Shown: positions 4,935 through 32,714 of the stretch, one piece after another | Layout of the letters: each line of letters opens with the position of its first letter | How positions within the stretch are numbered: the stretch's first letter is position 1 | Source of the DNA: Candidatus Neomarinimicrobiota bacterium | GTDB lineage: Bacteria > Fidelibacterota > Marinisomatia > Marinisomatales > S15-B10 | DNA length: 36,570 nt | Assembly: GCA_012964825.1 (NCBI GenBank) | Contig: DTTI01000026.1 | Location: 4,453 to 41,022 of the forward strand | Reading direction: 5' to 3' | Program-made: the position numbers and the translations under genes | The notes under the pieces: generated by a model | Seen by the model: the letters and a program-made list of their open reading frames with translations, nothing else | Told to the model about the DNA's origin: nothing | The model's database searches: none

Positions 4935-4947
4935 TAGGGTCATTTAA

Positions 4948-5955: not shown

Positions 5956-5974
5956 TGAAAAAGGAAACACACCA

Positions 5975-7972: not shown

Positions 7973-8000
7973 TACAGGCTCGATAATTAGAGGTATAAGT

Positions 8001-8021
8001 ATGAGAGATGAGTGGCAATGA
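8001..8021 (+). other. Possible 6-codon leader ORF overlapping the next start
   Basis: A minimal ORF (M-R-D-E-W-Q-stop) starts at ATG 8001, seven bases after an AGAGG ribosome-binding-like site (7989-7993), and ends in TGA at 8019-8021. That stop overlaps the ATG of the epimerase gene (8018-8020) in an ATGA arrangement. The main gene's own upstream site (GATGAG) is weaker. This layout would permit termination-reinitiation coupling. It is very short and could be chance. Confidence 0.25.
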
Positions 8022-9151: not shown

Positions 9152-9183
9152 TGATTTATACGACCAATAAATTGAGGTGTGAA

Positions 9184-12384: not shown

Positions 12385-12429
12385 AAAAAGGACAGATTCT
12401 ATTAGTCGACGAAGAGAAGGGAGACTATC

Positions 12430-13458: not shown

Positions 13459-13491
13459 TCTCTCTAAATTCTAGACATCCTTAATTATTCT

Positions 13492-13524
13492 AGGAGGTTT
13501 AAAGAAGACTTAAAGGAACCTCCT
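13492..13524 (+). other. Inverted repeat sequestering a Shine-Dalgarno-like sequence
   Basis: Between the asparaginase and permease genes AGGAGGTT (13492-13499) is perfectly complementary to AACCTCCT (13517-13524), with a 17-base loop. The left arm is a near-ideal ribosome binding sequence but has no start codon at normal distance; the permease TTG lies 43 nt further on. No T-run follows, so it is not an obvious intrinsic terminator. It could be an mRNA structure that stabilises the upstream message or controls permease translation. Confidence 0.45.
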
Positions 13525-13541
13525 CCACTGGCATAATCAAA

Positions 13542-15025: not shown

Positions 15026-16480
15026 ATGTCTGGACAGGTTGAACAATGTGAACTGGCGTCCGGTTTCTCCATTTCGCGCATTATCACAGGCATGTGGCAG
15101 GTAGCCGACATGGAAAGAGACGGTGCTATCTTGGATCTCCGCAAAACTATCGAAGCCATGAAACCCTATCTGGACGCTGGCTTGTCCACTTTTGATATGG
15201 CCGATCACTACGGATCGGCGGAAGAAATTGCCGGTACTTTTGCCCATGACACGGAAGGAATCCAGTTGCTAACAAAATGGGTACCTGAACCGGGGCCTTT
15301 AAAAGAGCAAGATGTTCGTAATGCAGTGGGAAAAGCCCTGATTCGGACAAAACGTGAAACCATAGACCTCTTTCAATTTCACGCTTGGAATTATGCAGAT
15401 CCGGCCTGGCTTGAAGCCTTGTTCTTTCTGAACGATTTGAAACAAGAGGGTCTTATCAGTCATCTCGGCCTAACCAATTTTGATGGCGCTCATTTGGGTA
15501 TGGTTCTTCATTCGGGAATCCAGGTGGTGTCCAACCAGGTTTCTTATTCTTTAATTGATCAGCGGCCCGTCTTGGATATGACTGAACTTTGTCAGGAGCA
15601 AAGCGTCCGATTGCTGGCGTACGGAACCCTGGCTGGGGGCTTTCTGAGTGAGCGTTGGTTGGATAAGCCAGAACCTAAGATGAGAGATCTCAAAACTTGG
15701 TCTCAAATGAAATATAAACGATTTATTGATGCAGCTGGCGGTTGGGACAAGTTTCAGCAACTGCTTCAGGTTGTCAAAAATGTGGCGATTAAAAGTAATG
15801 TTTCCATCGCCAATGTGGCTTGCCGTTTCGTACTTGATCAGCCTGAAGTCGGAGGCATTATTGTTGGAGCACGTCTTGGGGAAAGTGAACACATTCAGGA
15901 GAATCTCCGAGTTTTTCAATTTTCGCTGGATGATGAAAGTCGAGCAGTCCTAGAGGAGGCAACCAGTCTTTTGACACCCATTCCCGGTAATTGTGGGGAT
16001 GAGTACCGTAAACCTCCTTTCCTTACAGCTTCGGGAGACCTTTCACATCACGTTGAGGCAATCCCTCCGCCTTACGAAACGAGGTCAGGAGGGGATGGTA
16101 GAACCCTAGCCTTGTCCGGTACAGCCTGGGAGTCCATGGCAGGCTACAGCAGGGCTGTGCGGAAAGGTGACAGAATATGGGTATCTGGAACCACGGCGGC
16201 TCACGGCGAGCGTCTCATCGGTGGCAAGGACCCCGCCTCTCAGACACATTTCATTATAGATAAGATTGGAGGGGCCATCCAATCTTTAGGGGGAACCTTG
16301 GCTAATGTGGTGAGGACCCGGGTGTTTATCTCCAATATAGAGCAGTGGGAGGCAGTGGCTCGTGCCCACGGCGAACGGTTCAGGGAAATCCTTCCTGCTA
16401 ATACCTTAGTTCAGGCTTCACTTGTAGGAGAAAAGTATCTTGTGGAGATGGAGGCCGAAGCTCATATCCGGTCAGATTAA
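15026..16480 (+). CDS. Aldo/keto reductase-Rid domain fusion protein
   Basis: Two-domain cytoplasmic protein, 484 residues, with a very strong TAGGAGG ribosome binding site. Residues 1 to about 330 are an aldo/keto reductase with the full catalytic tetrad: Asp57 and Tyr62 (TFDMADHYG), Lys84 (LLTKW) and His119 (FQFHAW). The later GLTNFD strand and the IIVGAR segment, which would bind NADP(H), fit the family. Residues about 355-484 are a RidA/YjgF/UK114 domain (KGDRIWVSGTTAAHG, VVRTRVFISN, VEMEAEAHI). RidA proteins hydrolyse reactive 2-aminoacrylate-type enamines/imines using an Arg near the C-terminus; here that site reads PANTLVQ, so Asn459 replaces it. The domain therefore probably does not act as a classical deaminase and may bind a small amine or imine. 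The location after a permease suggests a step in amino-acid catabolism in which a carbonyl or imine is handled by both domains. Confidence 0.9.
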   Translation: MSGQVEQCELASGFSISRIITGMWQVADMERDGAILDLRKTIEAMKPYLDAGLSTFDMADHYGSAEEIAGTFAHDTEGIQLLTKWVPEPGPLKEQDVRNAVGKALIRTKRETIDLFQFHAWNYADPAWLEALFFLNDLKQEGLISHLGLTNFDGAHLGMVLHSGIQVVSNQVSYSLIDQRPVLDMTELCQEQSVRLLAYGTLAGGFLSERWLDKPEPKMRDLKTWSQMKYKRFIDAAGGWDKFQQLLQVVKNVAIKSNVSIANVACRFVLDQPEVGGIIVGARLGESEHIQENLRVFQFSLDDESRAVLEEATSLLTPIPGNCGDEYRKPPFLTASGDLSHHVEAIPPPYETRSGGDGRTLALSGTAWESMAGYSRAVRKGDRIWVSGTTAAHGERLIGGKDPASQTHFIIDKIGGAIQSLGGTLANVVRTRVFISNIEQWEAVARAHGERFREILPANTLVQASLVGEKYLVEMEAEAHIRSD

Positions 16481-16560: not shown

Positions 16561-16712
16561 TAGGCTTGGCATCAGATTGCTCTGCTGTGAGATGGAGTCA
16601 GTTTGTATTAACGGCTGTTTCTTGTTTGCTTGACATCAAAAGTTGAATAAGCTTGAGTATTTCATCTCCAGAGGATCATCATTTACCACAAATTAAAAAA
16701 AGAGGTAGAGTC

Positions 16713-19700
16713 ATGAGGAAAAGTATGAGACTTGGCTTTATTATTGTATTAACCCCACTATTGATCTTAGCACAAGGGGGAAGAGGCAAGATACGAGGTG
16801 TCGTTACTGACCAGGAAACTGGCGAGGCACTCGTAGGTGCGAACGTGTCCATTGAGGGCACGTCTCTTGGTGCATCGACCGATTTGAACGGTGTGTATGT
16901 CGTACTGGCAATTCCTACTGGTACGTACGCGGTGCGAGTTGGCTACATTGGTTATCGGGAGGTTGTACTTTCAAACATACGCGTCAGTGAGAACCTGACT
17001 ACGTCGCAGGATTTCCAGCTCTCGCCCTCAGCAATTGAGGTGGATGCACTCCAAATTGTTGCTGAACGTCCTCTTATCCAGCGAAATACCACTAACACAG
17101 TCCGAATAACGACTCAAGAAGATATTAAGAACATGCCCGTTCGCGGACTGCAAAATCTTATTGCCTTGGAGGCAGGTACTGTACTGCAAGATGGCGAATT
17201 GCACATCCGTGGTGGACGAACCGGTGAGGTAGCCTATTTCATTGATGGTGTTTCAGCAATGAACCCTATGTACAACAGTGAAAATGTTACAGTTATCCAA
17301 GAAGCGTTAGAAGAAGTTCAGATGCAGGCTGGTGGTTATACTGCAGAATTTGGAGGTGGGAACTCAGGAATTGTACGTTCAACACTACGTAGCGGTGGCC
17401 GACAAATAAGAGGGTCAGTTGACTTTCGTACGGATGGGTTTGCGGACCCAGGTGAACAATTTCTCGGAACGTCCTCCTATGGTTACTCAAATGGCGTGTT
17501 CACCTTGAGTGGTCCTGTAGCAACGCCTAAGCTCAGGTTCTTTGTGGCTGGACAGTTTAATAATATGGACAACCGAAGCCCGAGTTACGTAGTGCCTTTC
17601 GATACTAGAGATTTCATTGATCCAGTTACCGGCCAGGCACTTGGAACTCTTGATTCCTTAGGCTGGTTGCGTGATGACGGATATGAAGGGAGAGAGGCTG
17701 GTGAAGCGCTTCCTGGTAATTCTCACATTGCCTATCTACTTAACGATCTTCCTGATTCTTGGAGAAAATCCAATATGTTTCAAGGAACCTTGACGTATGA
17801 CCTGACGAACAATATCAAATTACGTTTTACAGGAACCGTTGATGGCTCAGAAAATCCGGCATCGGGATCCACTTTTTATACGAACTTACAGAATTCGTAC
17901 TTCAATAGTGATAGAACATCCATGGTATCAAGAGACCATACTATGATGGGCTTCCGGGCCACCCATATTTTGAATGAGAAAACGTTTTATGAACTGGGCC
18001 TCTTCTACACTAGTCGGGATTACAAGAACTACGACAAGGATTTTGGCGATGACTGGAAGTCTTATGCCGATAGTGTTGCAAACTTTGAAAAATTCGGGGC
18101 TACAGGATGGCGCAGTAGATATCTTGGTCCCGGATGGATCAGTACTATCAATAATTTTGAAATGGAACCACCCGGTTATCCGAACAATGGTTATTCAAAG
18201 AACAATCAAACTGACTTGGGTGCCTCTTTCGATTTTACTAGCCAGTTGAGGCCGAGGTGGGAGGTAAAAGTCGGTGGCCGATATGAGGCTTGGGAAATGC
18301 GTAGATTCTCTAGCGGGAATATCAGGCAGTGGTTACAAACTGAGTATGGTGTTACCGGTGACGACCCATATCAATGGGAGTCTATATACGGGAGTGATTG
18401 GGAATATCAGCGGCAGGTGGAACTCTCAAAGGCAAGTGGTGCTACGTATTATGGATATGATATTGACGGTGAAGAGACAGATGAGTTTCCTTATGGTCCA
18501 AACACACCCCAGTTTGCCTCAGGTTACTTGCAGAACAAAATTGAGTACCCAGACCTTGTTATGAACTTTGGACTACGGTTTGAATATATTGATAATCAAT
18601 CTTTGAAGCCCGCAGATCCAGAGAAACCTGTGATGGACACTCAAAGGGACTGGCTTGATCCATCTGGTGTAGAAAGAACAGAGCCCTATACTTATATTCT
18701 GCCCCGTTTCAACTTTTCATTCCCGGTGACGGACCGGACTGTGTTTTATGCTCAGTACGGTAAATATATGCAGATGCCATCTTTGAACCAGGTTTATACG
18801 GGTTACACTCAGTTAAGTAATACAGTGAGCCCGATGACCCGATCACCCTATGGTTGGTGGGGTGGTGGCGCCGGATGGACAGCCAAGCCAGAGGAGATCA
18901 CCCAATATGAGTTGGGCCTCCGCATTTTAGTCAGTGAGAATTTTGCTCTCACAACGACTGGATTCTACAAAAACTATAACAATCAACTTCGAATTGATGA
19001 AATCCGTGCCTCAGGCCTGCATCCAGAAGAAATTGCAGCAGGTGCCACACTTTTTGCTGGGAATGTAAATGAGGACTTTAGCACCAATAAAGGTGTGGAG
19101 TTTACTCTGGAGCTTAGACGCACCAAGCGTGTGGCAGCGAAGCTTAATTACACCCTGTCAGATACGCGAGGAACAGGTGCTAGTTCTAGATCAGGGGATG
19201 TTGTAGTGAGTGACGTGGTTACACGGTACCCGGTTCTCATGTTCCCGCTCGATTATCACCAGCCTCATCGCGGGAGCGCCATGTTAGACTACCGCTTTGC
19301 CCAGGGTGAGGGTGGAATGTTACAAGGTGCTGGTGTGAATTTGCTAATGACTTTCAACAGCGGCCATGCATATACGAAGATTGTAGAACCGCAAGAATTG
19401 GGTCAGGCAGATCCCTGGGATATTGGTGTGCGAGCTACACGTGACCCGCGTGGCCGGCGACCGGCTGAGCCACTTAATCATTCTATGACACCCTGGAATT
19501 TCAATATTGACCTTAATGTGGATAAGGTATTTTATCTTGGTGGAATCTCAGTAGATGTATATATGCATGTTTTGAATCTTCTTGACCGCAAGAACGTTAT
19601 CAATGTCCATCCTACCACTGGAACGCCGGAAGATGACGGTTGGTTAAGAAGTGCACATGCCGTGTCGTTTAAAAAGATTCCTCAATACGAGGATTTTTAC

Positions 19701-19805
19701 CGTGCCATCAATCTGGATAACCGCTGGGCCTGGCAGATGGCTTCGGGGAAAGATTTTTACGGAATGCCCCGTCAGATTCGCTTCGGCGCAAGGGTGGAAT
19801 TCTAA
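16713..19805 (+). CDS. TonB-dependent receptor with carboxypeptidase-regulatory-like domain
   Basis: Outer-membrane TonB-dependent receptor, 1030 residues. ATG 16713 is chosen over an in-frame TTG at 16653 because it begins a signal peptide (LGFIIVLTPLLILAQG) and has AGAGGTAG upstream. After the signal comes a carboxypeptidase-regulatory-like beta-sandwich (GKIRGVVTDQETGEALVGAN ... LNGVYVVLAIPTGTYAVRVG, about residues 25-110). A plug domain follows (VRGLQNLIALEAG, LHIRGGRTGEVAYFIDGV), then a beta-barrel rich in aromatic strands ending at GARVEF, with the C-terminal Phe typical of outer-membrane barrels. It is not SusC-like: there is no SusD next to it. Instead it precedes a large secreted cargo-like protein and a PorV-family barrel, so it may work with their export or bind the same ligand. 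Substrate not readable. The gap before it suggests its own promoter. Confidence 0.92.
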   Translation: MRKSMRLGFIIVLTPLLILAQGGRGKIRGVVTDQETGEALVGANVSIEGTSLGASTDLNGVYVVLAIPTGTYAVRVGYIGYREVVLSNIRVSENLTTSQDFQLSPSAIEVDALQIVAERPLIQRNTTNTVRITTQEDIKNMPVRGLQNLIALEAGTVLQDGELHIRGGRTGEVAYFIDGVSAMNPMYNSENVTVIQEALEEVQMQAGGYTAEFGGGNSGIVRSTLRSGGRQIRGSVDFRTDGFADPGEQFLGTSSYGYSNGVFTLSGPVATPKLRFFVAGQFNNMDNRSPSYVVPFDTRDFIDPVTGQALGTLDSLGWLRDDGYEGREAGEALPGNSHIAYLLNDLPDSWRKSNMFQGTLTYDLTNNIKLRFTGTVDGSENPASGSTFYTNLQNSYFNSDRTSMVSRDHTMMGFRATHILNEKTFYELGLFYTSRDYKNYDKDFGDDWKSYADSVANFEKFGATGWRSRYLGPGWISTINNFEMEPPGYPNNGYSKNNQTDLGASFDFTSQLRPRWEVKVGGRYEAWEMRRFSSGNIRQWLQTEYGVTGDDPYQWESIYGSDWEYQRQVELSKASGATYYGYDIDGEETDEFPYGPNTPQFASGYLQNKIEYPDLVMNFGLRFEYIDNQSLKPADPEKPVMDTQRDWLDPSGVERTEPYTYILPRFNFSFPVTDRTVFYAQYGKYMQMPSLNQVYTGYTQLSNTVSPMTRSPYGWWGGGAGWTAKPEEITQYELGLRILVSENFALTTTGFYKNYNNQLRIDEIRASGLHPEEIAAGATLFAGNVNEDFSTNKGVEFTLELRRTKRVAAKLNYTLSDTRGTGASSRSGDVVVSDVVTRYPVLMFPLDYHQPHRGSAMLDYRFAQGEGGMLQGAGVNLLMTFNSGHAYTKIVEPQELGQADPWDIGVRATRDPRGRRPAEPLNHSMTPWNFNIDLNVDKVFYLGGISVDVYMHVLNLLDRKNVINVHPTTGTPEDDGWLRSAHAVSFKKIPQYEDFYRAINLDNRWAWQMASGKDFYGMPRQIRFGARVEF

Positions 19806-19836
19806 TACTTTGTTATTTTAATGACCGATTGAATGA

Positions 19837-19854
19837 TTTGAACTGAGGTTCAAA
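19837..19854 (+). other. Stem-loop just upstream of the cargo gene ribosome binding site
   Basis: TTTGAAC (19837-19843) pairs perfectly with GTTCAAA (19848-19854) around the tetraloop TGAG. An A-run and the AAGGAG ribosome binding site of the next gene follow within three bases. It could affect translation of the cargo protein or protect mRNA ends. On the opposite strand a T-run would follow such a stem, but no minus-strand gene ends here. Confidence 0.35.
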
Positions 19855-19871
19855 AAAAGGAGTCGCTGACT

Positions 19872-22800
19872 ATGAGGAAAATCACATTTTTATCCTTCGC
19901 GGTGCTCACAGCTTTTGTAGTACCTATTACTTTTGCTAAAGAGGCACCAAAGGATATTTCAGTGCGGGATAACGCACTGTTCGGTGGAGGAAGGGGCAAC
20001 CCGCAATGGAGCCTGCTTAATATCAACAATCTCTGGTTCTGGCTTGAGAATAATGGCGAAGCGAACCATTCTCCTAACGGTGACAACGGTACATACTTCC
20101 CGCGCGGCATGGTATGGGCTATTTACAAGGATGGTATGAAATGGGGTGGCAAGGCTTATCTGGACGCTGCTCATACTGAACCGGCTCCTTATGGACAGAC
20201 TATCCGAATTGGTGGAAGTGATTATGGTAATGGGACCAACGCGGGGCGGATTATCGGTTCCGGTGCAACGGCTGCTCGGCAAGACCCAGGTGATGCTGAT
20301 GTTCGAGTTTACAGGATTCGCCGCGACTATTACACCATGTCCGAAGGGGAATTGAATCTCGACGCAGCTGAAACTTATGAAAAGAGTTTAGGTTCGGCCA
20401 CTGACGCAGAAGTGCAACTCGTTTATGATCGCTACGTGCTGGATTGGAATGAGTGGCCCATTGGTTACGGAGCGCCATATATCGATAGAAATGGAGACGG
20501 GGTTTACACTGCACCGCCCCCATTCAGTGCAACCTTCAACGCGGACAGTCTTATCAGCCAGGGTTACGATGAACCTGGAGTTGCTGGTGGAGATCCAAAC
20601 TCGCCGGCAGATCAGGTACTCTGGAATGTTTATAATGACCTTGACAGGACCCGGACACTTGCCATGGAAGGTTCTGAACCGATGGGTCTTGAAATTCAAC
20701 GTACTGTATGGGGCTATAAACGTTCTGACGCGCTGGGAAACAGCTATTTCAAAAGGGTAAAGATTATTAATAAGGGAGGCATTGACGTTGGTGGGGATGG
20801 TACCACCCTAGGTAGTTTTTATATTGATAGTATGTATGTTGGCCAGTGGTCGGATCCGGATTTAGGTGCATATTCGGATGACCTTCTGGGATGCGACACC
20901 ACGCTGGGTGTCGGCTATGTATATAATGGTAATCCCAGTGATTTTGAATATGCCAGGCATGGTCAGGTTGTGCCAGCAGCAGGGTACGATTTTCTGGCAG
21001 GCCCGATGGTTCCTTCACCGGGAGATGTAGCAGTCTTTGATCTCAAGTATAAACAAGATCATAAGAATTTACCCATGACTGGTTTTTCATGGTTTTCCGC
21101 TGGTAGCCCCATCTCTGATCCGCCCAGTGATTATACGGGAGGACTGCGATGGCACAAAATGTTACGGGGTTTTGCTCCAATAGATGGACCCGACCAATAT
21201 TATCCCTTCCCTGAAGGGACACCAAAGAGTTCATTTCCCTATGCCGGTGACCCGGTTACACAAACCGGCATGGTGGATGGTTTGGGAAATGACTGGTCGT
21301 TTCCTATGGGTGACCGACGAATGTTTTTGGTCAGTGGACCGTTCTCTTTAAATCCCGGGGATACTACGGAAGTTACTATAGGTTTTGTTGCTGGACAGGG
21401 AGCGGACAGGTATTCCAGCATTTCAGTTATGAAGTTCAACGACCGTTTCACTCAGTTGACTTATGACGCGCTCTTCCAAGTTACAAAAGCGCCGGCCAGG
21501 CCAGATGTGCAGGTTACAGAGTTGGATGAAGAAATAATCATAGAATGGAGCAGTAACCTGACGAGAGTCAATGATGTAGAAAACAAGGTTAGTGAACCTG
21601 GCGGCTATGCTTTCGAGGGATACAATGTATACCAGATGCCCAGAGGGAATTCCACTATTGGCGATGCGAAACGTATTGTGACCTATGATCTTGCAACCGA
21701 TCCCACCGTCATTCTTGATGAGGGATTCGACGCTACGTCTGGACTGATTCTGCTTAAGCCTGTTCAATTTGGGTCCAACGCCGGTGTAAAGCGGTTCTTT
21801 GTCTTTGATCGAGATCATGTTAAAGACGTAGATAAACTGAACAACGGCCAGGAGTATTATATAGCTGTAACGGCATACTCGGCAGCATCGGAAGCGGGAT
21901 ATATCCCGGCATCTCTGGAGTCGTCTCCGGAGATCATTACTGTTGTCCCACAGAAGCCGTTTGGAACAGTCTTTAATACCTCATATGGCGATATCCTCGA
22001 TGTAGTACAGGCTGCGGGTTCGAGCGACGGTGTTATTATTCCCACAGTTGTTGATCCCGGAGCGAGTACGGGCTCTACATACGAGATTACTTTTACAGAC
22101 TCTTCAGGGGGTGGCGTTGCGAACGTATATAAGATCACAAATACGACAGACAACGAGGTTGTCTTGTCTGATCAAAAGAACTTTACCGGTGACAGTGATT
22201 ATGCCCTTGCTGATGGTGTTTTCGTGCAGGTATCCGGCCCAGCTCTTCAAGGAAAAGATTGGGATTACACCGGTGGATCGGGAACGGGAGTTCGCTGGAT
22301 TTCGGGAGCCGGAGGTGGTGAACTGTTATACGGAGGTGCCTATCTGGGCCCCATGTTCACTGGCTCTAATGTTCCACCGGCAAATTTCGTGCAGGTAGAG
22401 TTTCGATTGGCGAATATCCTTGAGGGGACGGTGGGGCCTGGTGAGGACTACACTGTGGATACATCTCACCCAAATGCTTCAAAAGCTGCTACATATACAA
22501 CATGGGGCGCCGGGAATTTTAATGGTATTATTGATGTTCCCTTCTCAGCCTATGATGTCAATGGTCGGCAACTCAACACTGTCGTCCGCGATAGAGACGG
22601 TAATGGTCTCTGGAATATGCACTATTCCGACGCCGATGCAGATCCCCCCATTGATCACAACTGGAACTATATCTGGATTCTCGATTCAGATTATGATGAG
22701 GGTGCTTCATGGGATGCTGACACGGATGCCGAGGATTTCATGGCTCAGGTCGATATAGATGGTGGGCCAGTCCTGTGGGCTCTCTGGTTAAAAGATCGTG

Positions 22801-23255
22801 GAGGTCGTCCGTTTTTCTCGGACGATGGCATATTAACGCTTATACCCAATCTTGTTATCACAACCAGTGATATTTACAGCTTCGCCTCTCCAGCTCCAAC
22901 AACAGGTGGAGGAGAGGAAAAAATCAGCGCAGAGCGGGTAAATGTATTTCCGAACCCGTACTATGCTTTTAACCCTGCAGAGGTTACTCGTATGGCTAGA
23001 TTTGTTACTTTTAATAATCTGCCGCCCAAAGCGACCATTAGAATTTTTAATCTGGGCGGTCAGTTAGTGGCGAAACTGGACAAGGACGATGAATCTCAGT
23101 TCCTGCAGTGGCCTCTACTGAATTTCCAGAACATTCCTGTGGCCAGCGGTATGTACCTTGCACATGTTGAAATGGTAATGCCTTCTGGTGGAGAGGTTGC
23201 CAAGATACTGAAAATAGCAATCATTCAGGAGAAAGAGATGCTTGATATTTATTAA
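19872..23255 (+). CDS. Secreted multidomain protein with T9SS-like C-terminal domain
   Basis: Exported 1127-residue protein of a family seen in FCB bacteria but without known activity. Signal peptide about residues 1-22 (FLSFAVLTAFVVPITFA). The N-terminal half carries a calcium-loop-like DRNGDGVYT and the recognisable string DDLLGCDTTLGVGYVYNG (about residues 336-353). A fibronectin-III-like segment starts near residue 540 (DEEIIIEWSSN ... FEGYNVYQMPRG). From about residue 1020 the tail reads NVFPNPYYAFNP, ATIRIFNLGGQLVAKL and VASGMYLAHVE, the pattern of FlgD-like / type IX secretion C-terminal sorting domains. An AAGGAG site lies about 10 nt before the ATG. It is therefore probably carried across the outer membrane and attached at the surface or released. 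Position between a TonB receptor and a PorV-like shuttle supports this. No catalytic motif is recognised; a structural or binding role is likely. Confidence 0.85.
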   Translation: MRKITFLSFAVLTAFVVPITFAKEAPKDISVRDNALFGGGRGNPQWSLLNINNLWFWLENNGEANHSPNGDNGTYFPRGMVWAIYKDGMKWGGKAYLDAAHTEPAPYGQTIRIGGSDYGNGTNAGRIIGSGATAARQDPGDADVRVYRIRRDYYTMSEGELNLDAAETYEKSLGSATDAEVQLVYDRYVLDWNEWPIGYGAPYIDRNGDGVYTAPPPFSATFNADSLISQGYDEPGVAGGDPNSPADQVLWNVYNDLDRTRTLAMEGSEPMGLEIQRTVWGYKRSDALGNSYFKRVKIINKGGIDVGGDGTTLGSFYIDSMYVGQWSDPDLGAYSDDLLGCDTTLGVGYVYNGNPSDFEYARHGQVVPAAGYDFLAGPMVPSPGDVAVFDLKYKQDHKNLPMTGFSWFSAGSPISDPPSDYTGGLRWHKMLRGFAPIDGPDQYYPFPEGTPKSSFPYAGDPVTQTGMVDGLGNDWSFPMGDRRMFLVSGPFSLNPGDTTEVTIGFVAGQGADRYSSISVMKFNDRFTQLTYDALFQVTKAPARPDVQVTELDEEIIIEWSSNLTRVNDVENKVSEPGGYAFEGYNVYQMPRGNSTIGDAKRIVTYDLATDPTVILDEGFDATSGLILLKPVQFGSNAGVKRFFVFDRDHVKDVDKLNNGQEYYIAVTAYSAASEAGYIPASLESSPEIITVVPQKPFGTVFNTSYGDILDVVQAAGSSDGVIIPTVVDPGASTGSTYEITFTDSSGGGVANVYKITNTTDNEVVLSDQKNFTGDSDYALADGVFVQVSGPALQGKDWDYTGGSGTGVRWISGAGGGELLYGGAYLGPMFTGSNVPPANFVQVEFRLANILEGTVGPGEDYTVDTSHPNASKAATYTTWGAGNFNGIIDVPFSAYDVNGRQLNTVVRDRDGNGLWNMHYSDADADPPIDHNWNYIWILDSDYDEGASWDADTDAEDFMAQVDIDGGPVLWALWLKDRGGRPFFSDDGILTLIPNLVITTSDIYSFASPAPTTGGGEEKISAERVNVFPNPYYAFNPAEVTRMARFVTFNNLPPKATIRIFNLGGQLVAKLDKDDESQFLQWPLLNFQNIPVASGMYLAHVEMVMPSGGEVAKILKIAIIQEKEMLDIY

Positions 23256-23308
23256 TACCATGCTGAAGCGTCTTAAGATTTATCTAGAGAATTGAAAAGG
23301 AGAGCACG

Positions 23309-24400
23309 ATGAAAAATAGATTTAGATTCCTTCCAGCGGTCTTCCTCTTGGTAGCGTTGGTTATGGTCAGTAGCCTTGATGCGCAGGTGACCGAGGTTGG
23401 TAGAACCATGGACGAGGATCAGGATATTAGTAACAGAAGGATCGGTAGTTCAGCTGCAACAGAGCTTTTGATCCCTGTTGGGGCGCGGGACATGGCCTTG
23501 GGAGGTGCGAGCATCGCAGTCACTCAAGGTGTTGAAGCCATTCACTGGAATCCCGCCGGTCTTGCTCGTCTTGGCAGTTCTGCCGAGGCAATCTTTTCCT
23601 CTTTGTCCTACCTTGCTGACATCAATCTAAACTACGGTGCTATAGGGGCCTCCTTTGGCCGCTTGGGCGTAGTGGCTGTCAGCATCAGATCTTTGGATTT
23701 CGGTGATATCTCCATGACTTCACATGACGATCCTGAAGGTGATGGAGGTAGAACATTCTCACCTGCCTTTATTACTGCGGGACTGAGCTATGCTATAGCG
23801 TTCAGCGACCGGGCGAATGCTGGTGCCACCATTAAAGTAGTCTCAGAGAAAATGGGTAGGGTACAAGGCTCGGCAGTTGCCGTGGATCTTGGCGTGCAAT
23901 ATCATTCCATCGGTGGGATTTCTGGTCTTGACATGGGTGTTGCCATGAAAAACTTCGGTCCCGAGGTTGCCTTTAAAGGTACTGGTCTATTGCGCAGAGC
24001 CACTTCCTCCGAAGGACGACGCGCGGAACAGTACTACAGTCTTGAACCGGCATCCTTTCAGTTACCATCCGTGGTCGAAATTGGCGTAACATACGACATG
24101 TCACTAGGTGAGGGTATGGGCTTGACCACTAGCGGTGCTTTTGTAAACAATAACTTGGCTCTCAATTCCTTCCGCGTAGGCAGTGAAATTAGCATGAACG
24201 TTCAGAAGGCATCTTTGTTTGGTCGTGGTGGCATGGAGTTTGCCACAAAAGGTGCGCTGGATGAGCATATTTTTGGTCCTACTGTTGGGTTTGGTTTATA
24301 CTACGAGTTGGTTGGGATCAATTTTATGCTGGATTATGCCTGGAGATCGGTCGAGTACTTTGATAATAACTCGGTTATTTCCTTAAGACTCGGATTCTAA
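23309..24400 (+). CDS. PorV/PorQ family outer-membrane protein
   Basis: Outer-membrane barrel of the PorV/PorQ (UPF0164-like) family, 363 residues with a signal peptide (FLPAVFLLVALVMVSSLDA). The signature is near the mature N-terminus: GARDMALGGASIAVTQGVEAIHWNPAGLA, about residues 57-85, followed by alternating amphipathic strands ending SLRLGF with a C-terminal Phe. In Bacteroidota, PorV shuttles type IX secretion cargo to the cell-surface attachment complex and PorQ is a related component. Here the gene directly follows a cargo-like protein bearing a sorting-type tail, a suggestive partner. It has a strong AAAAGGAG ribosome binding site and is followed by an intrinsic terminator, so it ends the transcription unit. 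Which of PorV, PorQ or another family member it is cannot be decided; core secretion genes (porK, porL, porM, porN, sov) are not in this window. Confidence 0.88.
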   Translation: MKNRFRFLPAVFLLVALVMVSSLDAQVTEVGRTMDEDQDISNRRIGSSAATELLIPVGARDMALGGASIAVTQGVEAIHWNPAGLARLGSSAEAIFSSLSYLADINLNYGAIGASFGRLGVVAVSIRSLDFGDISMTSHDDPEGDGGRTFSPAFITAGLSYAIAFSDRANAGATIKVVSEKMGRVQGSAVAVDLGVQYHSIGGISGLDMGVAMKNFGPEVAFKGTGLLRRATSSEGRRAEQYYSLEPASFQLPSVVEIGVTYDMSLGEGMGLTTSGAFVNNNLALNSFRVGSEISMNVQKASLFGRGGMEFATKGALDEHIFGPTVGFGLYYELVGINFMLDYAWRSVEYFDNNSVISLRLGF

Positions 24401-24427
24401 GTCTCCAACTAGAGGTTATTTATGAGT

Positions 24428-24462
24428 GAAAAGCTGTCTCTTTAGAGGCAGCTTTTCTTTTG
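24428..24462 (+). terminator. Rho-independent terminator after the PorV-like gene
   Basis: A 13-bp stem (GAAAAGCTGTCTC with GAGGCAGCTTTTC, one G-U pair) closes a TTTA loop and is followed by a T-rich stretch. It lies 28 nt after the PorV-family stop codon and should separate the receptor-cargo-PorV unit from the PIG-L-like gene. Confidence 0.85.
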
Positions 24463-24484
24463 TGACCTAGGCAAACATACGCTT

Positions 24485-26788
24485 ATGTTTAAATGTTTAA
24501 TGAGTGCTCGAAAATCTATATATTTTTCTCTTCTCATTATCTTACTATTTTTTCTTTCTTGTCAGAAAGATGTGGCTAGTAAGTCCTACTTTCCGGAAAC
24601 AGGTCGAAATGCGATTTACCAGAGCTCCATTGACCTGCGCAGAAATCTCAAAGTTCTATCCATTTCGATGCAACCTGGCCAGGAAGATCTTTCTGGTTTA
24701 GCATATTTCCGTCTTGGACTAGGAGCAAAAATTATGGGTGCCTATATCACAAATGGGGAGGGGGGAGAAAGCGATATCCGGGGTGAATACCCCCCCTATC
24801 TTGCTAAGACTCGAAGAGAAGAAGCAGCAGATGTGTTGGCATATCTGGGAGGTCAAGTACATTTTCTTAATATGCCTCATATTGCGTCAGCCAGGGATTC
24901 AACAAGAGTTAGGGAATTATGGCCTGCCGATCAACTCCAGGCGGGTCTTGTGGAGCTTTTTTCTCAATTTAGGCCCGACGTAGTGCTCTTAGCTCGCGAT
25001 TGGGCAGGTGACAGAAAAAACCATCAGTGGGAGATACTGTATGCCGATTTGATCACGACAGCAAAGAAAAGTCCATTTGTAGAGCACCTTTTTGTAGATA
25101 GTGGTAAAGAAAATGGGGTCTTAATTCCAGCTGATGAGCGTCACAAGTTTTGGAAAAAAACATATCGTAAAGTTGGGAAAGAAGCTGCAGCCAAATACAG
25201 ATCTTTGGCCATTCAGCGAAATACCTGGCTGAGAGGCTACGAACCATCATACCACCTTGCATATACAACTTCACCCCAACAAATTAAGAAACTTGATGAG
25301 GGGTTATCAACGTCCCCTTCAAAACGTCTTAGCCGGACAGGTCACGCAATACGAAAACTGACGGAAGCAACAGCCCAAGGAGACCGTGGTGACGTATTAA
25401 AATCACTGGTAGCCGTCTTGGACTCAGTCAGTTTTTATCTTACGCGTACTTATGATTTGAAGGTCCGTGAACAAGAAACTTTGTTGCGTTGGAAAAAGGG
25501 GCTTGAAAGACTTCGATGTGCCCTGCTGGGAGTGGAGGTGGAGTATTCCATCAGCGATAGAATGCTTACAGACCGGCAGTTGACCTTTCTCACAATAAAC
25601 AGTTTGAAAGGCGTGGCTGATGATGGGGAGACACATATATATTTCCCTAGTGCTGATAAAGGGTGGATTATTAATGAAGATGTGGCATCAAGGATTCCTT
25701 TGGAATTGGAAAAAAAATATCCGTTAGTTACCCCTGAAGGCATTGACTATACCTACCCGCCTGGACGCTATGAGTTCAACTCTTCGACCGTGGGGGAACC
25801 TTTTAAATTTTTCATACTTCATCAAGGACTGACAAAAGAAGAAAGTTTTATATACAGCAGTACTGTAGAGTTTACTTTTTCCCCGAAGGTGGCGATCGAG
25901 ATTTTATCACCCATCGTTAGGATGACACCTGGTGAGATCGTTGTTTTTCGTTTAACGAACATTTCTAGAGATGGGGTGGCAGATGTGATCAAAGCCGACG
26001 GTCCACTTGCTTATTCAAATGAGAGCAGATTTAGATTAAGCAATAAAAATGACTCACATCTTGACACACTTCGCATTTTCTGGACCGGCAGGCCTGACGT
26101 TGGAACATATCTAATCCCACTAAAGATTGGTTATACTCAGGTGGGGAATTTTGCTGCAAGAAAATTCGATGCAAAGGTTGATACGTCCAAGAGAATTGGA
26201 TTCATCACAGGATTACAGAACAGCCCGTTAGCTAATGCGCTTCGGCGATTGAACATCAATTTTTCCTCTATTCGCTTGGACAAATCATTTTCAAGGCAAA
26301 CTGCTTTACTCGATGTTCTCTTAGTTGACAGGCGAGCACTATCTTTGAAGCCCAAAATAAAGGATTTGAAGAAAGATATGGTTAATTTTGTGAAAAAGGG
26401 AGGTCATTTAATTGTTTTTGCGCAAGATGCTGTTACTTGGAATGATGCACCACTTTGGTCTGGGATGAACTTGACTCCAACAGTACAATACGACGAGAAG
26501 ATTGAACTTAAATTGAGCTCAACGCACACACTTCTAAAACAACCCAATCTGATTGCTTCACAAGATTGGAATGGATGGCTTTACTCAAGGGGTTACAATA
26601 TTGTTTCTGGCAGCGCCCTGAAGAGCGCTGAGCTTCCGGTGCGGGTAGCTGATTCGGGAGAAGCACTTATTGTTGTGTCAGCAGATGGTAAGGGTAAACA
26701 GACTTATGTTGATTTAGCTCTTGGCCATCAGTGGATGAACATTCATCCTGGGGCGTATCGACTGCTGGCAAACCTCATTTCAAATTAG
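24485..26788 (+). CDS. PIG-L-like lipoprotein with degenerate metal site
   Basis: Probable lipoprotein (lipobox FLSC, Cys26), 767 residues, of the long PIG-L/LmbE deacetylase group. Residues about 54-200 follow the PIG-L pattern: VLSIS, then a hydrophobic helix, ITNGEGGES, TRREEAADVLAYLG, RPDVVLLARDW and NHQW. True PIG-L enzymes bind zinc with an HPDDE-type motif; here the same place reads Q63-P-G-Q-E-D, so the His and Asp ligands are lost, and deacetylase activity is unlikely. The middle is beta-rich, and the last about 200 residues look like a class-I glutamine-amidotransferase/ThuA-type alpha/beta domain (RIGFITGLQNSPLANALRRL, FVKKGGHLIVFAQDA). A second in-frame ATG at 24500 is the alternative start; neither has a clear ribosome binding site. 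The next gene starts 15 nt after the stop, so the two are probably co-transcribed. It may bind rather than cleave an acetylated sugar. Confidence 0.82.
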   Translation: MFKCLMSARKSIYFSLLIILLFFLSCQKDVASKSYFPETGRNAIYQSSIDLRRNLKVLSISMQPGQEDLSGLAYFRLGLGAKIMGAYITNGEGGESDIRGEYPPYLAKTRREEAADVLAYLGGQVHFLNMPHIASARDSTRVRELWPADQLQAGLVELFSQFRPDVVLLARDWAGDRKNHQWEILYADLITTAKKSPFVEHLFVDSGKENGVLIPADERHKFWKKTYRKVGKEAAAKYRSLAIQRNTWLRGYEPSYHLAYTTSPQQIKKLDEGLSTSPSKRLSRTGHAIRKLTEATAQGDRGDVLKSLVAVLDSVSFYLTRTYDLKVREQETLLRWKKGLERLRCALLGVEVEYSISDRMLTDRQLTFLTINSLKGVADDGETHIYFPSADKGWIINEDVASRIPLELEKKYPLVTPEGIDYTYPPGRYEFNSSTVGEPFKFFILHQGLTKEESFIYSSTVEFTFSPKVAIEILSPIVRMTPGEIVVFRLTNISRDGVADVIKADGPLAYSNESRFRLSNKNDSHLDTLRIFWTGRPDVGTYLIPLKIGYTQVGNFAARKFDAKVDTSKRIGFITGLQNSPLANALRRLNINFSSIRLDKSFSRQTALLDVLLVDRRALSLKPKIKDLKKDMVNFVKKGGHLIVFAQDAVTWNDAPLWSGMNLTPTVQYDEKIELKLSSTHTLLKQPNLIASQDWNGWLYSRGYNIVSGSALKSAELPVRVADSGEALIVVSADGKGKQTYVDLALGHQWMNIHPGAYRLLANLISN

Positions 26789-26803
26789 CGGAAAGGACAA
26801 CGA

Positions 26804-28177
26804 TTGACTGTTAAGAAACTTATTTTTTCGTTTGTTTTTGCTGGGTTCTCCATTGGTGAAATTCTGGCTCAGGACATCACCCCGCCCAAATCCTTCAGAT
26901 TGAACCTGGACTACGCAAAATTCCGGTACGATAATGAGAATGCTTACCTGGAAATCTACTATGCGTTTTATCCATACCTCCTTACTTACCGCTGGTTGGG
27001 AGAAAAATATAGTACCGGTGTGCAACTTCGGATGCGCTTGAAAAACAATGAGACGAACACCTATCTATTTGATGAACGATCATCGTTACAAGTCGATGCA
27101 GCGGATAGTACAGAGGCAACATCTCGCTTTTCGTTTGTTACCCAGGCTGGGTATGCTGTCCCATTTGGCGATTATACCCTGGAAGTAGTTGCTAATGACT
27201 CACTTGCTCCATCGCGCCGGGACAGTGTTAGTTTCAATATCAGTGCGAATCCTTATCCGGCTGGGGCGTGGTGTAGCGATTTGGAACTTTGCAGCACCAT
27301 TAAATCATCTCAAAAGAGAGACGATCCTTTCTTTAAAAACTCATTAGAAGTTGTCCCAAATCCTACGCTGGTTTTTGGAGTTACAGCCCGCCCGGTGGTT
27401 TTTCACTATGTGGAACTGTACAATTTGGACCCGGTAAAAACGTACACGGTTAAGCAACTTATCATAGATCCTGATGGAGAAGTGATACGCGAGGCATCAA
27501 AGAGACGTAATTTTGGTGCCAGAGATGCTATAGAAGTCGGTACAACAAACGTGACATCGATTTTCTCTGGGCGATATCAGTTTCATGTTTTGGTTTTAGA
27601 TGATAGTTCACAGGAAATAGCCAAGGCAGAGAAAACGTTCTATGTATATAATCCACATTTACAGGTGCCATCTTTAACTGACCCTGTTTTCCAGGAGATG
27701 GAGTTGGCTGGGCTGTCCGAGGAGCGGCTTACTGAAGAATTTCAGCAAGCAAGATATCTCGCAACCGAAGGAGAAATTGAAGCCTTTGCAGAAATCATCT
27801 CTGAAGATGAAAAGCGTAAGTTTCTAGCAGAATTTTGGGTTAATGTGGAAAATGGAGAGAGCAGGCACGGACCAATCAGGCGTGCGGATTATTTGGAACG
27901 GGTGGAGAAAACTAACGAGCGATACCAATCAATGGGGAAGAAAGGATGGCGTTCAGATCGGGGTCGCATCTATATTTTGTATGGTCCACCAGACGAAATT
28001 GATAGGTATCCCAGCGCTGGGGAAAGTAAGCCATATGAAATTTGGCGTTATCATTCAATTGAGAGTGGGGTGGAATTTATTTATATAAACCGTTTTGGCT
28101 TTGGGGACTATGAATTAGTTCACTCTACCAAAAGGGATGAGCTCCGCAATGAGCAATGGCGGGGCTATTTAAGATAA
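26804..28177 (+). CDS. GWxTD domain-containing exported protein
   Basis: Exported protein of 457 residues with a signal peptide (LIFSFVFAGFSIGEILAQ) and a C-terminal GWxTD domain, a family of unknown function typical of FCB bacteria and Acidobacteria. The namesake motif is GWRSD (residues 381-385), with Ser for Thr, followed by the conserved GRIYILYGPPDEI. The central part is beta-rich, with immunoglobulin-like strands, and is followed by helices (EERLTEEFQQARYLATEGEIEAF). TTG 26804 is the only sensible start; GGAAAGGA lies about 7 nt upstream. It follows the degenerate PIG-L gene closely and meets the minus-strand hydrolase gene convergently, with only 18 nt between stops and no clear terminator. 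Function unknown; a periplasmic or outer-membrane-associated assembly role is a guess. Confidence 0.9.
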   Translation: MTVKKLIFSFVFAGFSIGEILAQDITPPKSFRLNLDYAKFRYDNENAYLEIYYAFYPYLLTYRWLGEKYSTGVQLRMRLKNNETNTYLFDERSSLQVDAADSTEATSRFSFVTQAGYAVPFGDYTLEVVANDSLAPSRRDSVSFNISANPYPAGAWCSDLELCSTIKSSQKRDDPFFKNSLEVVPNPTLVFGVTARPVVFHYVELYNLDPVKTYTVKQLIIDPDGEVIREASKRRNFGARDAIEVGTTNVTSIFSGRYQFHVLVLDDSSQEIAKAEKTFYVYNPHLQVPSLTDPVFQEMELAGLSEERLTEEFQQARYLATEGEIEAFAEIISEDEKRKFLAEFWVNVENGESRHGPIRRADYLERVEKTNERYQSMGKKGWRSDRGRIYILYGPPDEIDRYPSAGESKPYEIWRYHSIESGVEFIYINRFGFGDYELVHSTKRDELRNEQWRGYLR

Positions 28178-28195: not shown

Positions 28196-29206
28196 TTATT
28201 CATTGTCCTTTAGGAAGGAGATAATTCCCTTGGCATAGGAATCCGGGTCATCCCACATTGCCAAATGGCTACCATTTGTGCAAAGCAGGAATGAACCATT
28301 TGGCAATTCTTTTGACATCCATTCCATATGGTCTGGGTCCATCGTATCATGGGTTGCACCAATTACCAATGTTGGCGTTTTAATCTCAGCCAGACGATCT
28401 TTAACATCCCAAAATTCCAGTAAACCTGAAGCACCAAATTCACTGGGACCCTGCATGGCGACATACATGTCTTGGTTAATGTTTGCAAAAGCCTCGTTCA
28501 CTTCCTCAGGCCAATCATTAACCGGAATCCGGAGAACATGGTGCTCATAATGGTGTGGGATGAGGAGTTCCATATAGCGGGGATTGTCGTACTCTTTATT
28601 GGCCTCCAGCTCCTTTATCTCTGAAAGGATCTCAGGGGGCATTTGCGGTCCCAACACTTTTTCAGCATAATCGTTATAATCAGGAATGCTTGCCATCATA
28701 TTTGAAATGATGAGTCCCTTTAGGTTTTCTTGGTATTTCAGAGCATACTCCATGGCCAAGATTCCTCCCCATGAGTGACCCAACAGGAAAAAGTTTGATG
28801 GGTCCAGACCCAATTTTTTTCGCACCGTCTCCACTTCCTCTACAAAACGTTCTATCGTCCAGTCCACTGGATTTGTTGACGAATCGCTGTTATGAGATCC
28901 AAACTGATCGTAGTAGTAATATTCCAGTCTTTCCTGCGGAAAATATTTATCCAGAGATTTGAAATAATCGTGGGATGCCCCGGGGCCGCCGTGCAGTAAA
29001 AGCAGTTTTATGTTCTCGTTATCACCCACTTTCTTGGTCCACACCTTGTGTCCACCGGCAATCTCAATCATTTTTACACCCACATCTGCTTCTTGCGTTG
29101 GTTTTGCTTTTTGTTCAACGGGGACTGGTGTGGTTACTGATGTGGTGGCACAGCCACATAAAAATAAAAGGCTTACAGTGAAAATGATGGACATTGTCTT
29201 GCGCAT
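28196..29206 (-). CDS. Proline iminopeptidase-like alpha/beta-hydrolase lipoprotein
   Basis: Lipoprotein (lipobox LCGC, Cys19) of the proline iminopeptidase / tricorn-interacting-factor-F1 alpha/beta-hydrolase family, 336 residues. The family oxyanion motif HGGPG (72-76), YYDQFG (the usual DQRG region) and nucleophile Ser145 in GHSWGG are clear; Asp287 (GATHDTMD) and His314 (NGSHLAMWDD) complete the triad. A cap of helices lies between about residues 175 and 265. Expected to remove N-terminal proline or other residues from short peptides, but anchored to a membrane rather than cytoplasmic like most relatives. Read on the minus strand the ATG has an AAAGGAG site about 6 nt upstream. It is the only minus-strand gene, divergent from the SusC-like gene and convergent with the GWxTD gene, so it has its own promoter. 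It fits the peptide-scavenging theme of the left operon. Confidence 0.92.
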   Translation of the reverse strand: MRKTMSIIFTVSLLFLCGCATTSVTTPVPVEQKAKPTQEADVGVKMIEIAGGHKVWTKKVGDNENIKLLLLHGGPGASHDYFKSLDKYFPQERLEYYYYDQFGSHNSDSSTNPVDWTIERFVEEVETVRKKLGLDPSNFFLLGHSWGGILAMEYALKYQENLKGLIISNMMASIPDYNDYAEKVLGPQMPPEILSEIKELEANKEYDNPRYMELLIPHHYEHHVLRIPVNDWPEEVNEAFANINQDMYVAMQGPSEFGASGLLEFWDVKDRLAEIKTPTLVIGATHDTMDPDHMEWMSKELPNGSFLLCTNGSHLAMWDDPDSYAKGIISFLKDNE

Positions 29207-29485
29207 ATTAACTCCTTTATTTTTCTTTCATTTTCTTAAAACAAATTGACTCTTCGCATTCATTATAAGCTATTTTAGGGCAGCTCACAACATCAAGAGA
29301 TTATTTCTTCATGGAGATTGAGATAACGGAAAATATTTTCTCTGAAATCTCTCCGAATACACTAAAGTTATAAGAAAAATAAAAAAATCATTGCCATCAA
29401 ATTAAACAACCCTAAATTCACTAGTCTTACGATTTGTGGAGAACTTGTGTATAATTGCAAACATTTGAAGACTAAGGAGTCGATT
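29207..29485. promoter_or_regulatory. Divergent AT-rich intergenic region with dyad
   Basis: A 279-nt AT-rich gap separates the divergent starts of the iminopeptidase-like and SusC-like genes and must hold both promoters. A perfect 12-bp palindrome, GAAAATATTTTC, lies at 29329-29340, loosely flanked by GAGATT (29314-29319) and AATCTC (29346-29351). This is a candidate operator. A TTGACT at about 29246 has a TATAAG only 12 nt away, too close for a standard promoter, so no promoter box is assigned. Confidence 0.4.
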
Positions 29486-32400
29486 ATGAATCAATCTCGA
29501 TTGGTATCATCATTATTTTTAACAGTCTTTCTTGTGGCCGGTCTGTCGGCGCAGGATGCTGTCATTTCGGGTAATATCACGGATGCGCAGTCTGGCGATC
29601 CTCTGCCGGGTGCTAACGTAGTTGTTGAAAATACTAACTATGGTGGTGCAACGGATATAGATGGTAACTACAGCTTTACCGTCCCTGCTTCCGGTCAGGA
29701 GGCAGAGGTAACAGCCCGGTTCATTGGTTACTTTGCTAATACCGCGAGTGTTACTCTTTCCGCTGGTTCCATAACCCAAGATTTCTCTCTTGATGAAGAT
29801 GTCCTTGAAATGGAGGCTGTGATTGTAACGGGCTTGGTGGATGCCACGCCTCGTACCAAATCTCCCCTCTCAACGGGTCAGATAAGTGGTGAAATGCTTG
29901 AGCGTGTACCTGCTAGCTCTCCGGCCTCAGCACTCTATGGAAAAGTTTCCGGTGTAAAAGTTGTTCAGGGTGGTGGCCAACCTGGTGACTCTCCTTCAGT
30001 TCTTTTGAGAGGCCCCACAAGCATTAATGCTTCTGGCCGGTCTCAGGACCCACTTTATATTGTAGATGGTGTTATTGTTGATCCATCTGTGAGTGGTTCT
30101 CCCCTGGCAGATATTCCTGGTGATAACATTGAAAGTATTGAGGTTGTTAAAGGAGCGGCCGGTGCCTCCATGTACGGTGCCCGAGCTGCAAACGGCGTAA
30201 TCCAGATCAGAACAAGACGTGGCAGTGGACTGGCCCTGAACCAGACCAAGATCAAGTTTCGTAGCGAATATGGTAGGAATGATCTCCCCAAAGCTTTGGA
30301 TGTAAATCGCTCTCATGCCTATCTACAGAACTCTTCCGGTGAATTCATTGATGGAAACGGTGATGTTGTAGATCCCCGTGCAACTTCTGGGCGCCAGTCG
30401 GACGTTTGGAACAATGTTCCGGGTATTGAATTCTATGACAATCCATATAAATATGTAGCTACAGGTGAAGTCGGCGACGCAAAGATATCGCTGTCTGGAG
30501 ACGGCTTTGACAATATGAGACGTTTCTTCAGGGAGAATAATGAAGTTAATCAGACACTTACTGTCAGCCGAAATATGGAGAGCACAAACTTCTCAGTTGC
30601 CATTGGCAACCTGAATAAGGAAGGCATCCTTTCTGATATAGGTGGATATGGTCGCCAGAGTGTTACGGTGAATGTTGATCACAAATTCAAAAATAGCCTG
30701 GATATCGGTTTTAGTACTATGGTTAGTCAATCAGAGCGAGATGCTGTTGGCAGTACTTTTGGCGGGTTTTATGCCATTACGTTTATGGCGCCGGATGCTG
30801 ATCTAACTATGATCGATCCTGAAACAGACAGAGTCTACATCCAGCCTGACCCTGCGTCTGTGGAAGAGAATCCTCTCTACTTTTTGAAATACAATGATAG
30901 AGACAATTTCAATCGCAGAGTTATGAGTAGCTTTAGTCTTCGTTGGAATCCCGTGGATTGGGCCCACGTGACAGGTAGTCTCAGTTACGATCGGGCAAAC
31001 CAGAATTACGACTCCTTCTATCCTATCGGCTTTACAAATATCAGTGGTGGTGGGACAGCCGTAGACGGCCGTTACATTAAAACCACTTCTGCCGACATGG
31101 GATTGAACGGTGACCTAAAGTTCATGGCCACCCGGGAATTTGGTAACATTACGGCAAAGGTTACGGGGTCCACCCTGTTTGAACAGACGGAGTCCGATGG
31201 CTTTGATGCTGACGGTCGCAAATTTGCTGTAGGTGGTGTCCGAAGTCTCGGAGTTGCTGCCAGTGATAAAGTTTATATTGGCTCCTGGAAACAGGATGTT
31301 CGAGGTATCAGTAATATGGGCGGTGTCATGCTTGATTACAATGACGCTGTAATTGTTGATGCCTTTTTCAGGAAAGAAGGAAGTTCGCTTTTTGGTGGGG
31401 AAGAGCGGTGGCACAATTACAGCAGAATTGCTACAGCTGTGCGGCTTACAGAATTAGTACCTCTCCCAATGTTCAACGAATTCAAGCTTCGTTTTACAAC
31501 GGGGACAGCCGGATCGCGCCCAAACTTTAGCGCAAGGTTTGAAACCTGGAGCGTCTCTGGTGGTGTTGTGTCTAAGGGGAACCTGGGTAACAAAGGCCTT
31601 ATCCCCGAATTATCGACTGAGACAGAAATGGGCTTTGATGCCATCCTTATGGACAGGTTTAGCATCTCAGCCACGTACGTAAATTCAACCACTGAGAATC
31701 AGATTCTTTATGTTCCTCTACCTGGATATGCCGGATACAGCAATCAGTGGCAGAATGCCGGGACTTTGGATAATGAGTCTTTTGAAGCTGAAGTGAGTGC
31801 GTCACTTGTGAACACGCCGTCATTCAGCTGGGAAATGGGTCTGACATATTACACTCAAATAAAGTCAGTGATTTCAAAGCTGGACATTGCTCCCTACACT
31901 AGAAATCCTTTCTATATTAAAGAGGGTGAAACTATGGGAGCCCTGTGGGGTGCCAAGTGGGTCGAAAACACAGCTGATCTTCCTGATGAATCTAACGCCG
32001 GTGAGTTTGTTACCAACGATGACGGTTATGTTGTCTGGGTCGGCTCCGGCAACACCTGGCAGGACGGTATATCCAAGGAACTGTGGGGAACGACCTCAGA
32101 TGATGGTTACAAATGGGGCATCCCAATAAAACAGATTGATAAGAGTGCGGATGATACTGGTATTTTCGTCAAATTGGGTGAAACCATTCCTGATTTCGAT
32201 ATGGGTATTTCCAACACGCTCCGTTTCGGCGGGTTCGAGGTGTACGCCCTTCTTGATGGCCAGGTTGGAGGAAACATTTATAACAATACAGTCCAGTGGG
32301 GCCTTCGTGAGCTGAAGTTGGGTATTGTGGATCAGGCTGGAAAGAGCGAAGGCGACAAAAAACCCGGCCTCTATTATGCCACGCTTTATGATGTGGATGC

Positions 32401-32692: not shown

Positions 32693-32714
32693 TTCTGAGT
32701 TAAAGGAGAATAAT

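Follow-up and report, generated by a model that had tools for sequence, protein, structure and literature searches.

The window analysed here, a stretch of 36,570 nucleotides from a Candidatus Neomarinimicrobiota bacterium, contains a run of three genes on the plus strand. The first encodes a TonB-dependent receptor (16713..19805), the second a secreted protein of 1127 residues (19872..23255), hereafter the cargo, and the third a 14-strand barrel of the PorV/PorQ family (23309..24400). The run is closed by an intrinsic terminator (24428..24457, +) with a 13-bp stem, a 4-nt loop and a T-run (z = -3.27 relative to shuffled sequences). A PIG-L-like lipoprotein whose metal motif is lost (24485..26788) and a GWxTD-domain protein (26804..28177; TIGR04514, 92 bits) are encoded next, again on the plus strand. 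An earlier note, made from the DNA letters alone, had described these parts, with the receptor lacking a SusD, and open reading frame and domain scans of the window recovered all of them in place.

The receptor lies in an open reading frame spanning 16653-19805, with the ATG at 16713, which opens a signal peptide, as its most likely start. It carries the Pfam domains CarbopepD_reg_2 (6.5e-17), Plug (2.7e-7) and barrel (7.7e-24), and its C-terminal end is PRQIRFGARVEF. Because domain scans of the set and its neighbourhoods detected no SusD inside the three-gene set, and because the receptor scores only 43.7 bits against the SusC equivalog TIGR04056 (cut-off 368), we rejected a SusC/SusD system for the set. 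A separate SusC/SusD pair does occur further along the window, followed by an unknown protein of 182 aa and an FG-GAP protein (29447-34364, +).

To what extent the three genes belong together was judged from homologous loci found with the cargo alone. Within the order, 40 of 41 genomes contain homologues of the cargo, and a collection with a single genome for each species yields no fewer than 569 loci; the cargo of locus L101 is 93% identical to that of the window. The best 78 named loci belong to Neomarinimicrobiota, Ignavibacteriota, candidate division KSB1, Calditrichota, Gemmatimonadota, Latescibacterota and Handelsmanbacteria, and also include records named as Bacteroidetes or Chlorobi. 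The set was found across the first six of these groups. Among 103 full-length homologues with both neighbours visible, 84 show the order receptor, cargo and PorV on the same strand; four others have the receptor only, so that it stands 5' of the cargo in 88 of 103, 15 have neither neighbour and none has PorV only. Median intergenic gaps are 28 bases between receptor and cargo and 26 bases between cargo and PorV. Profiles derived from the proteins of the window served to classify the neighbours, and all but a few of the genomes compared are metagenome-assembled. Since the same order was found in dozens of genomes with the cargo as the only query, it is more than chance. Lack of conservation would have refuted the earlier note's suggestion of a set; the order is instead conserved both within the order and across phyla of the FCB group.

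The cargo consists of a signal-peptide-like N-terminus, a large domain, fibronectin-like beta domains and a type-A-like sorting domain at about residues 1021-1117 (22932..23222, +). No Pfam family was matched by any part of the 1127 residues, and a sequence profile search returned PorZ as its sole match, at E = 0.29. The tail scores 21.2 bits against the sorting model TIGR04183, just below the curated 23-bit cut-off, and thus misses the type A criterion on this measure; the C-terminus matches that of PorZ at 4.7e-5. Across the cargo family, 10 of 13 members match the sorting domain (TIGR04183/PF18962) at E<=0.01, the best at 1.9e-7. The AlphaFold2 model, built from an alignment of homologues (mean pLDDT 86.0), places a sorting-type beta-sandwich at the C-terminus, with strands at 1024-1117, the last of them at 1108-1117 and about ten residues after it. 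Fold matches of this domain include PorZ (5m11) and PorU (6za2), so that the tail does resemble sorting domains, a point on which the suggested set could have failed. Lys1114, within the last strand, is invariant in 59 sequences. We equate it with the published near-terminal lysine by position only, not by structure overlay. A C-terminal beta-sandwich with a conserved near-terminal lysine, the structural criterion for type A cargo, is met. Residues 1118-1127 (23223..23252, +) form an extension of the QEKEMLDIY type, which follows the last strand and has an aromatic end. When the full-length cargo was used in a fold search, only individual beta domains found local matches; no solved structure was close to the protein as a whole or to its large N-terminal part, and therefore we claim no enzymatic role. 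Neither the type B domain TIGR04131 nor the PorP/SprF barrel TIGR03519 was matched in an NCBIfam scan of cargo and barrel, and a type B cargo with a PorP/SprF partner was rejected for this reason.

The barrel is a member of the PorV/PorQ family (NF033709, 134 bits, cut-off 90) and falls well short of the equivalog for type IX PorV (NF033710, 55.5 bits, cut-off 250). Its AlphaFold2 model, also from an alignment of homologues, has 14 strands and a pLDDT of 86.9. Among PDB folds it most resembles the two translocon PorV chains 8gl6_F and 6h3i_F of type IX secretion, with FadL channels ranking next. In the tree, the barrel groups with the PorVs of other loci whose cargoes have the extended tail, and this cluster is separate from canonical PorV, from PorQ and from PorVs that accompany cargoes with a short tail.

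The window's genome (2.2 Mb, 97.6% complete) was searched for type IX machinery, the lack of which would have counted against the earlier note. It encodes a Sov/SprA of 2107 aa, identified with a curated model, and a PorU sortase (687 bits), and the presence of both meets the genomic criterion for type IX cargo. SprA was found in 40 of 41 genomes searched alongside the window's own and in each of 18 genomes with the three genes that were sampled from other phyla. A separate PorV of canonical type adjoins an M6 protease with a sorting domain. It scores 200.8 bits against NF033710, under the cut-off of 250, and shares one starred clade of the tree with the top-scoring PorVs from seven other genomes; two of these seven PorVs score above that threshold. 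A PorQ-like barrel is also encoded. The earlier note had proposed a search for porK/L/M/N along with sov; the latter was found, and the GldL, GldM and GldN models gave no match in the window's genome or in several other genomes bearing the three genes. Because no control genome gave a positive signal for these models either, absence of GldL, GldM and GldN is not shown. With SprA and PorU present and these components undetected without a positive control, the energy source of export remains open.

The extension is closely linked to the PorV gene. Its consensus in full-length homologues is K-L-A-I-I-Q-E-Q-E-v-L-D-v-Y, that is, an 'IIQEQEvLDvY' end with about ten extra residues. Of 93 homologues followed by a PorV gene, 92 carry it, against 6 of the 20 that have no PorV gene behind them (Fisher p = 2e-12); the single PorV-linked homologue that lacks it, L140, is a truncated frame. 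Beyond cases at contig ends and with frameshifts, four homologues with the extended tail have no adjacent PorV, and the link is therefore strong but not absolute. In a tree built without the sorting domain, extension and PorV changed together in 8 of 10 phylogenetically independent pairs and in opposite directions in none (p = 0.008), a test with only 8 informative pairs. Genome G032 holds both states, a PorV-linked copy that ends KLAIIQPEQRLDVY and an unlinked paralogue that ends KLAVIQPQF. No PorV gene follows any of the 32 proteins whose sorting domain has the canonical KM end ('KKMvLLK'). Part of the tail classification was drawn up or refined only after inspection, and the homologues are related rather than independent. 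The idea of a dedicated set, as first put forward, gains from this association of cargo tail and PorV gene; that the one binds the other is inferred.

The arrangement, which we refer to as a cassette, is not confined to this cargo family. In each of eight sampled genomes, 10 to 18 matches to the PorV family were counted, and most of the sampled non-canonical PorVs are the last gene of another cassette of receptor, cargo and PorV. The cargoes of these other cassettes end in GKFAIIK-like strands and never in the canonical KKMvLLK. A prediction was written in advance and twenty further loci were then inspected; it held in the 16 of them that were new. Four turned out to be extended-tail cassettes already seen. 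In 13 of the other 16 a sorting-domain protein precedes PorV, once with a small frame between, and none of the 13 has a KM end. A receptor gene precedes the others in 12 of 15 loci that could be judged; three loci (L232, L244 and L248) have neither sorting-domain protein nor receptor. The earlier note had singled out the set as a candidate for an undescribed system. As a cassette it holds up; as a lone oddity it does not, since many receptor-cargo-PorV cassettes occur in each genome. Beside sprA on contig C71 of genome G000 (L025 and L026), together with two small PorV-like genes, lies a cassette of another type, consisting of a sorting-domain protein, an unknown protein of 532 aa, a TonB receptor, a PorV and an NHL-repeat protein. 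This order was found again in genomes G003, G016, G052 and G054. The order seen in the window also occurs in a cultured species. On plasmid pRMAR01 of Rhodothermus marinus, RMAR_RS14120-14115-14110 are annotated as a TonB-dependent receptor, a hypothetical protein and a PorV/PorQ family protein; this cargo is only distantly homologous (25% identity) and ends in the short cassette tail GKFAVIK.

The two genes behind the terminator had been described as neighbours. Their presence and the lost metal site were confirmed, but their adjacency is not chance, both being a conserved extension of the set. Out of 82 loci in which the gene after PorV is visible, that gene encodes PIG-L in 14 and GWxTD in another 13. 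The PIG-L protein matches PF02585 at 40.8 bits, and its HPDDE metal motif has become QPGQED. Since the motif is lost in all 21 cassette PIG-Ls examined, which read xPGxED throughout, the pseudoenzyme state is a family trait, and identity as a PIG-L deacetylase was rejected. We found no description of GWxTD proteins in the open-licence literature, subscription journals being outside our scope. Other lineages have other followers. In Latescibacterota and Gemmatimonadota (L139, L147, L148, L149 and L159) a TPR protein and OppB/OppC-type permeases come after the cassette PorV, a hint towards peptide uptake. In Stygiobacter (L169, 13841-15726) the genes after GWxTD encode a lipid A acyltransferase and a heptosyltransferase, and the following frames in L125, L158, L164, L167 and L174 are similar in size and order; for Ignavibacteria this hints at a link to LPS. 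Because the followers differ between lineages, we name no ligand.

PorV is known to collect type A cargoes from SprA (PMC10994853), and motif E at the C-terminal end of the type A domain governs the contact with PorV (PMC10202324). For type B cargoes the shuttles are dedicated PorP/SprF proteins with genes beside those of the cargo, and the prior view has been that all type A cargoes use one PorV, private shuttles being reserved for type B (PMC12618676). On balance, we think it probable, without being certain of it, that the three genes form one export-and-display cassette, which has its own PorV paralogue and works through the shared type IX translocon. Such a cassette would apply the published shuttle logic to PorV paralogues and to sorting domains resembling type A. 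The signal peptide would take the cargo across the inner membrane, after which it would enter the Sov/SprA translocon of the genome. There, the adjacent PorV-like barrel, and not the housekeeping PorV, would pick it up, with the last strand of the sorting domain and the ten-residue extension as the address label, and would carry it to the cell surface or hold it there. Recognition of the tail by the barrel, export and surface location are all inferred, as we have no binding, export or localisation data. The sub-threshold type A score of the window's cargo and the failure to detect GldL, GldM and GldN (without a positive control) also weigh against this account. At the surface the cargo may work with the TonB receptor, most likely as an extracellular ligand-binding partner, in a role comparable to that of the SusD or BtuG lipoproteins but reached via type IX export. 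This partnership rests on gene order alone, and whether the receptor acts in uptake or in assembly, the two roles first suggested for it, is likewise a matter of inference. The PIG-L pseudoenzyme and the GWxTD protein would be accessory parts of this subtype.

The same observations can be read in other ways. Rather than shuttling the cargo, the cassette PorV could tether it to the surface permanently, as has been proposed for PorP and type B; the extension would then keep the two together and might spare the cargo from cleavage. In type B, cleavage probably does not take place and the cargo remains with its PorP partner (PMC10202324). Canonical tails of the cleaved type have no extension, and one PorV gene per cargo gene would fit a stoichiometric anchor. 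Yet nothing separates shuttle from anchor, the PorV fold being common to both roles, and we regard a permanent anchor as unlikely, though not to be dismissed.

Another reading starts from the barrel's wider relationships. PorV belongs to the FadL superfamily, whose channels are the next structural matches, and BamG, a FadL relative, is found in the BAM complex (PMC12578637). The PorV-like protein might accordingly act as a channel of the FadL type or, like BamG, as a factor in receptor assembly, with the cargo using the housekeeping PorV and the genes kept together only as one uptake pathway. We find this quite improbable, as neither the change of the cargo tail with the presence of the PorV gene nor the ranking of two translocon PorV chains as first structural matches would be explained. 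It is also conceivable that an ordinary type A cargo simply sits beside an unrelated receptor, and that conservation reflects slow rearrangement of an old operon; the tail scores near the type A model and the followers differ between lineages, as this would have it. However, the order is kept across phyla despite differing flanks, its occurrence is all-or-none, and many parallel cassettes with diverged members exist in the same genomes, which leaves very little room for such an account.

If the cassette is a private export route, it combines features of several known systems. With type A export through a housekeeping PorV, as in Porphyromonas and Flavobacterium, it shares Sov/SprA, PorU, a PorV-fold barrel, and a cargo with a signal peptide and a C-terminal beta-sandwich with a near-terminal lysine. 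It differs in the separate PorV paralogue encoded with each cargo, in the tail with its changed last strand and extension, and in the TonB receptor in the operon, as well as in GldL/M/N going undetected (without a positive control). Like the type B PorP/SprF pairs of F. johnsoniae (PMC12618676), it has a shuttle-like barrel gene directly downstream of the cargo, occurs several times per genome and pairs a barrel with a class of sorting domain, but the sorting domain is type-A-like, the barrel belongs to the PorV/PorQ family rather than PorP, and a TonB receptor stands in front. SusC/SusD and BtuB/BtuG likewise encode a TonB barrel with a CarboxypepD_reg-like domain beside a large extracellular protein; the cassette, in contrast, has no SusD homologue or surface lipoprotein, and its partner carries a type IX sorting domain and comes with its own PorV. 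Type IX systems have been noted before in other FCB phyla (PMC11285876), and the translocon outside Bacteroidota is therefore not the new part. What we consider new is the cassette of receptor, cargo and private PorV together with its tail classes, for which no description was found in the open-licence literature; subscription journals were not covered.

Should this reading hold, the principle of private shuttles would extend to the main cargo class, with a readable address code at the cargo C-terminus and a connection between type IX export and TonB-dependent uptake. Many 'PorV/PorQ family proteins' would also gain a function, as would a large unnamed secreted family that lacks a Pfam entry. 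The same arrangement in cultured Rhodothermus marinus makes it testable. A broader idea, which we put forward only tentatively and which may well prove wrong, is that outside Bacteroidota proper type IX export amounts to many private address channels, in which the PorV paralogue of each cassette reads a last strand and tail specific to that cassette. The exported proteins would serve TonB transporters as subunits outside the cell, in systems that may lack the known GldLM motor.

Upstream of the cassette, a secreted-looking, peptide-handling run on the plus strand (2916-15017) contains two S9 peptidases, a beta-lactamase-like enzyme, a sortilin-type propeller, an asparaginase and an amino acid permease, and gives the region a context of peptide use. 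Between this run and the receptor, a single frame of 484 aa (15026-16480, +) unites an aldo/keto reductase with a Rid-family (L-PSP) domain, an unusual fusion. On the other side, and facing the cassette, lies a gene for a hydrolase of the proline iminopeptidase family with a lipoprotein-like N-terminus (28196-29206, -).
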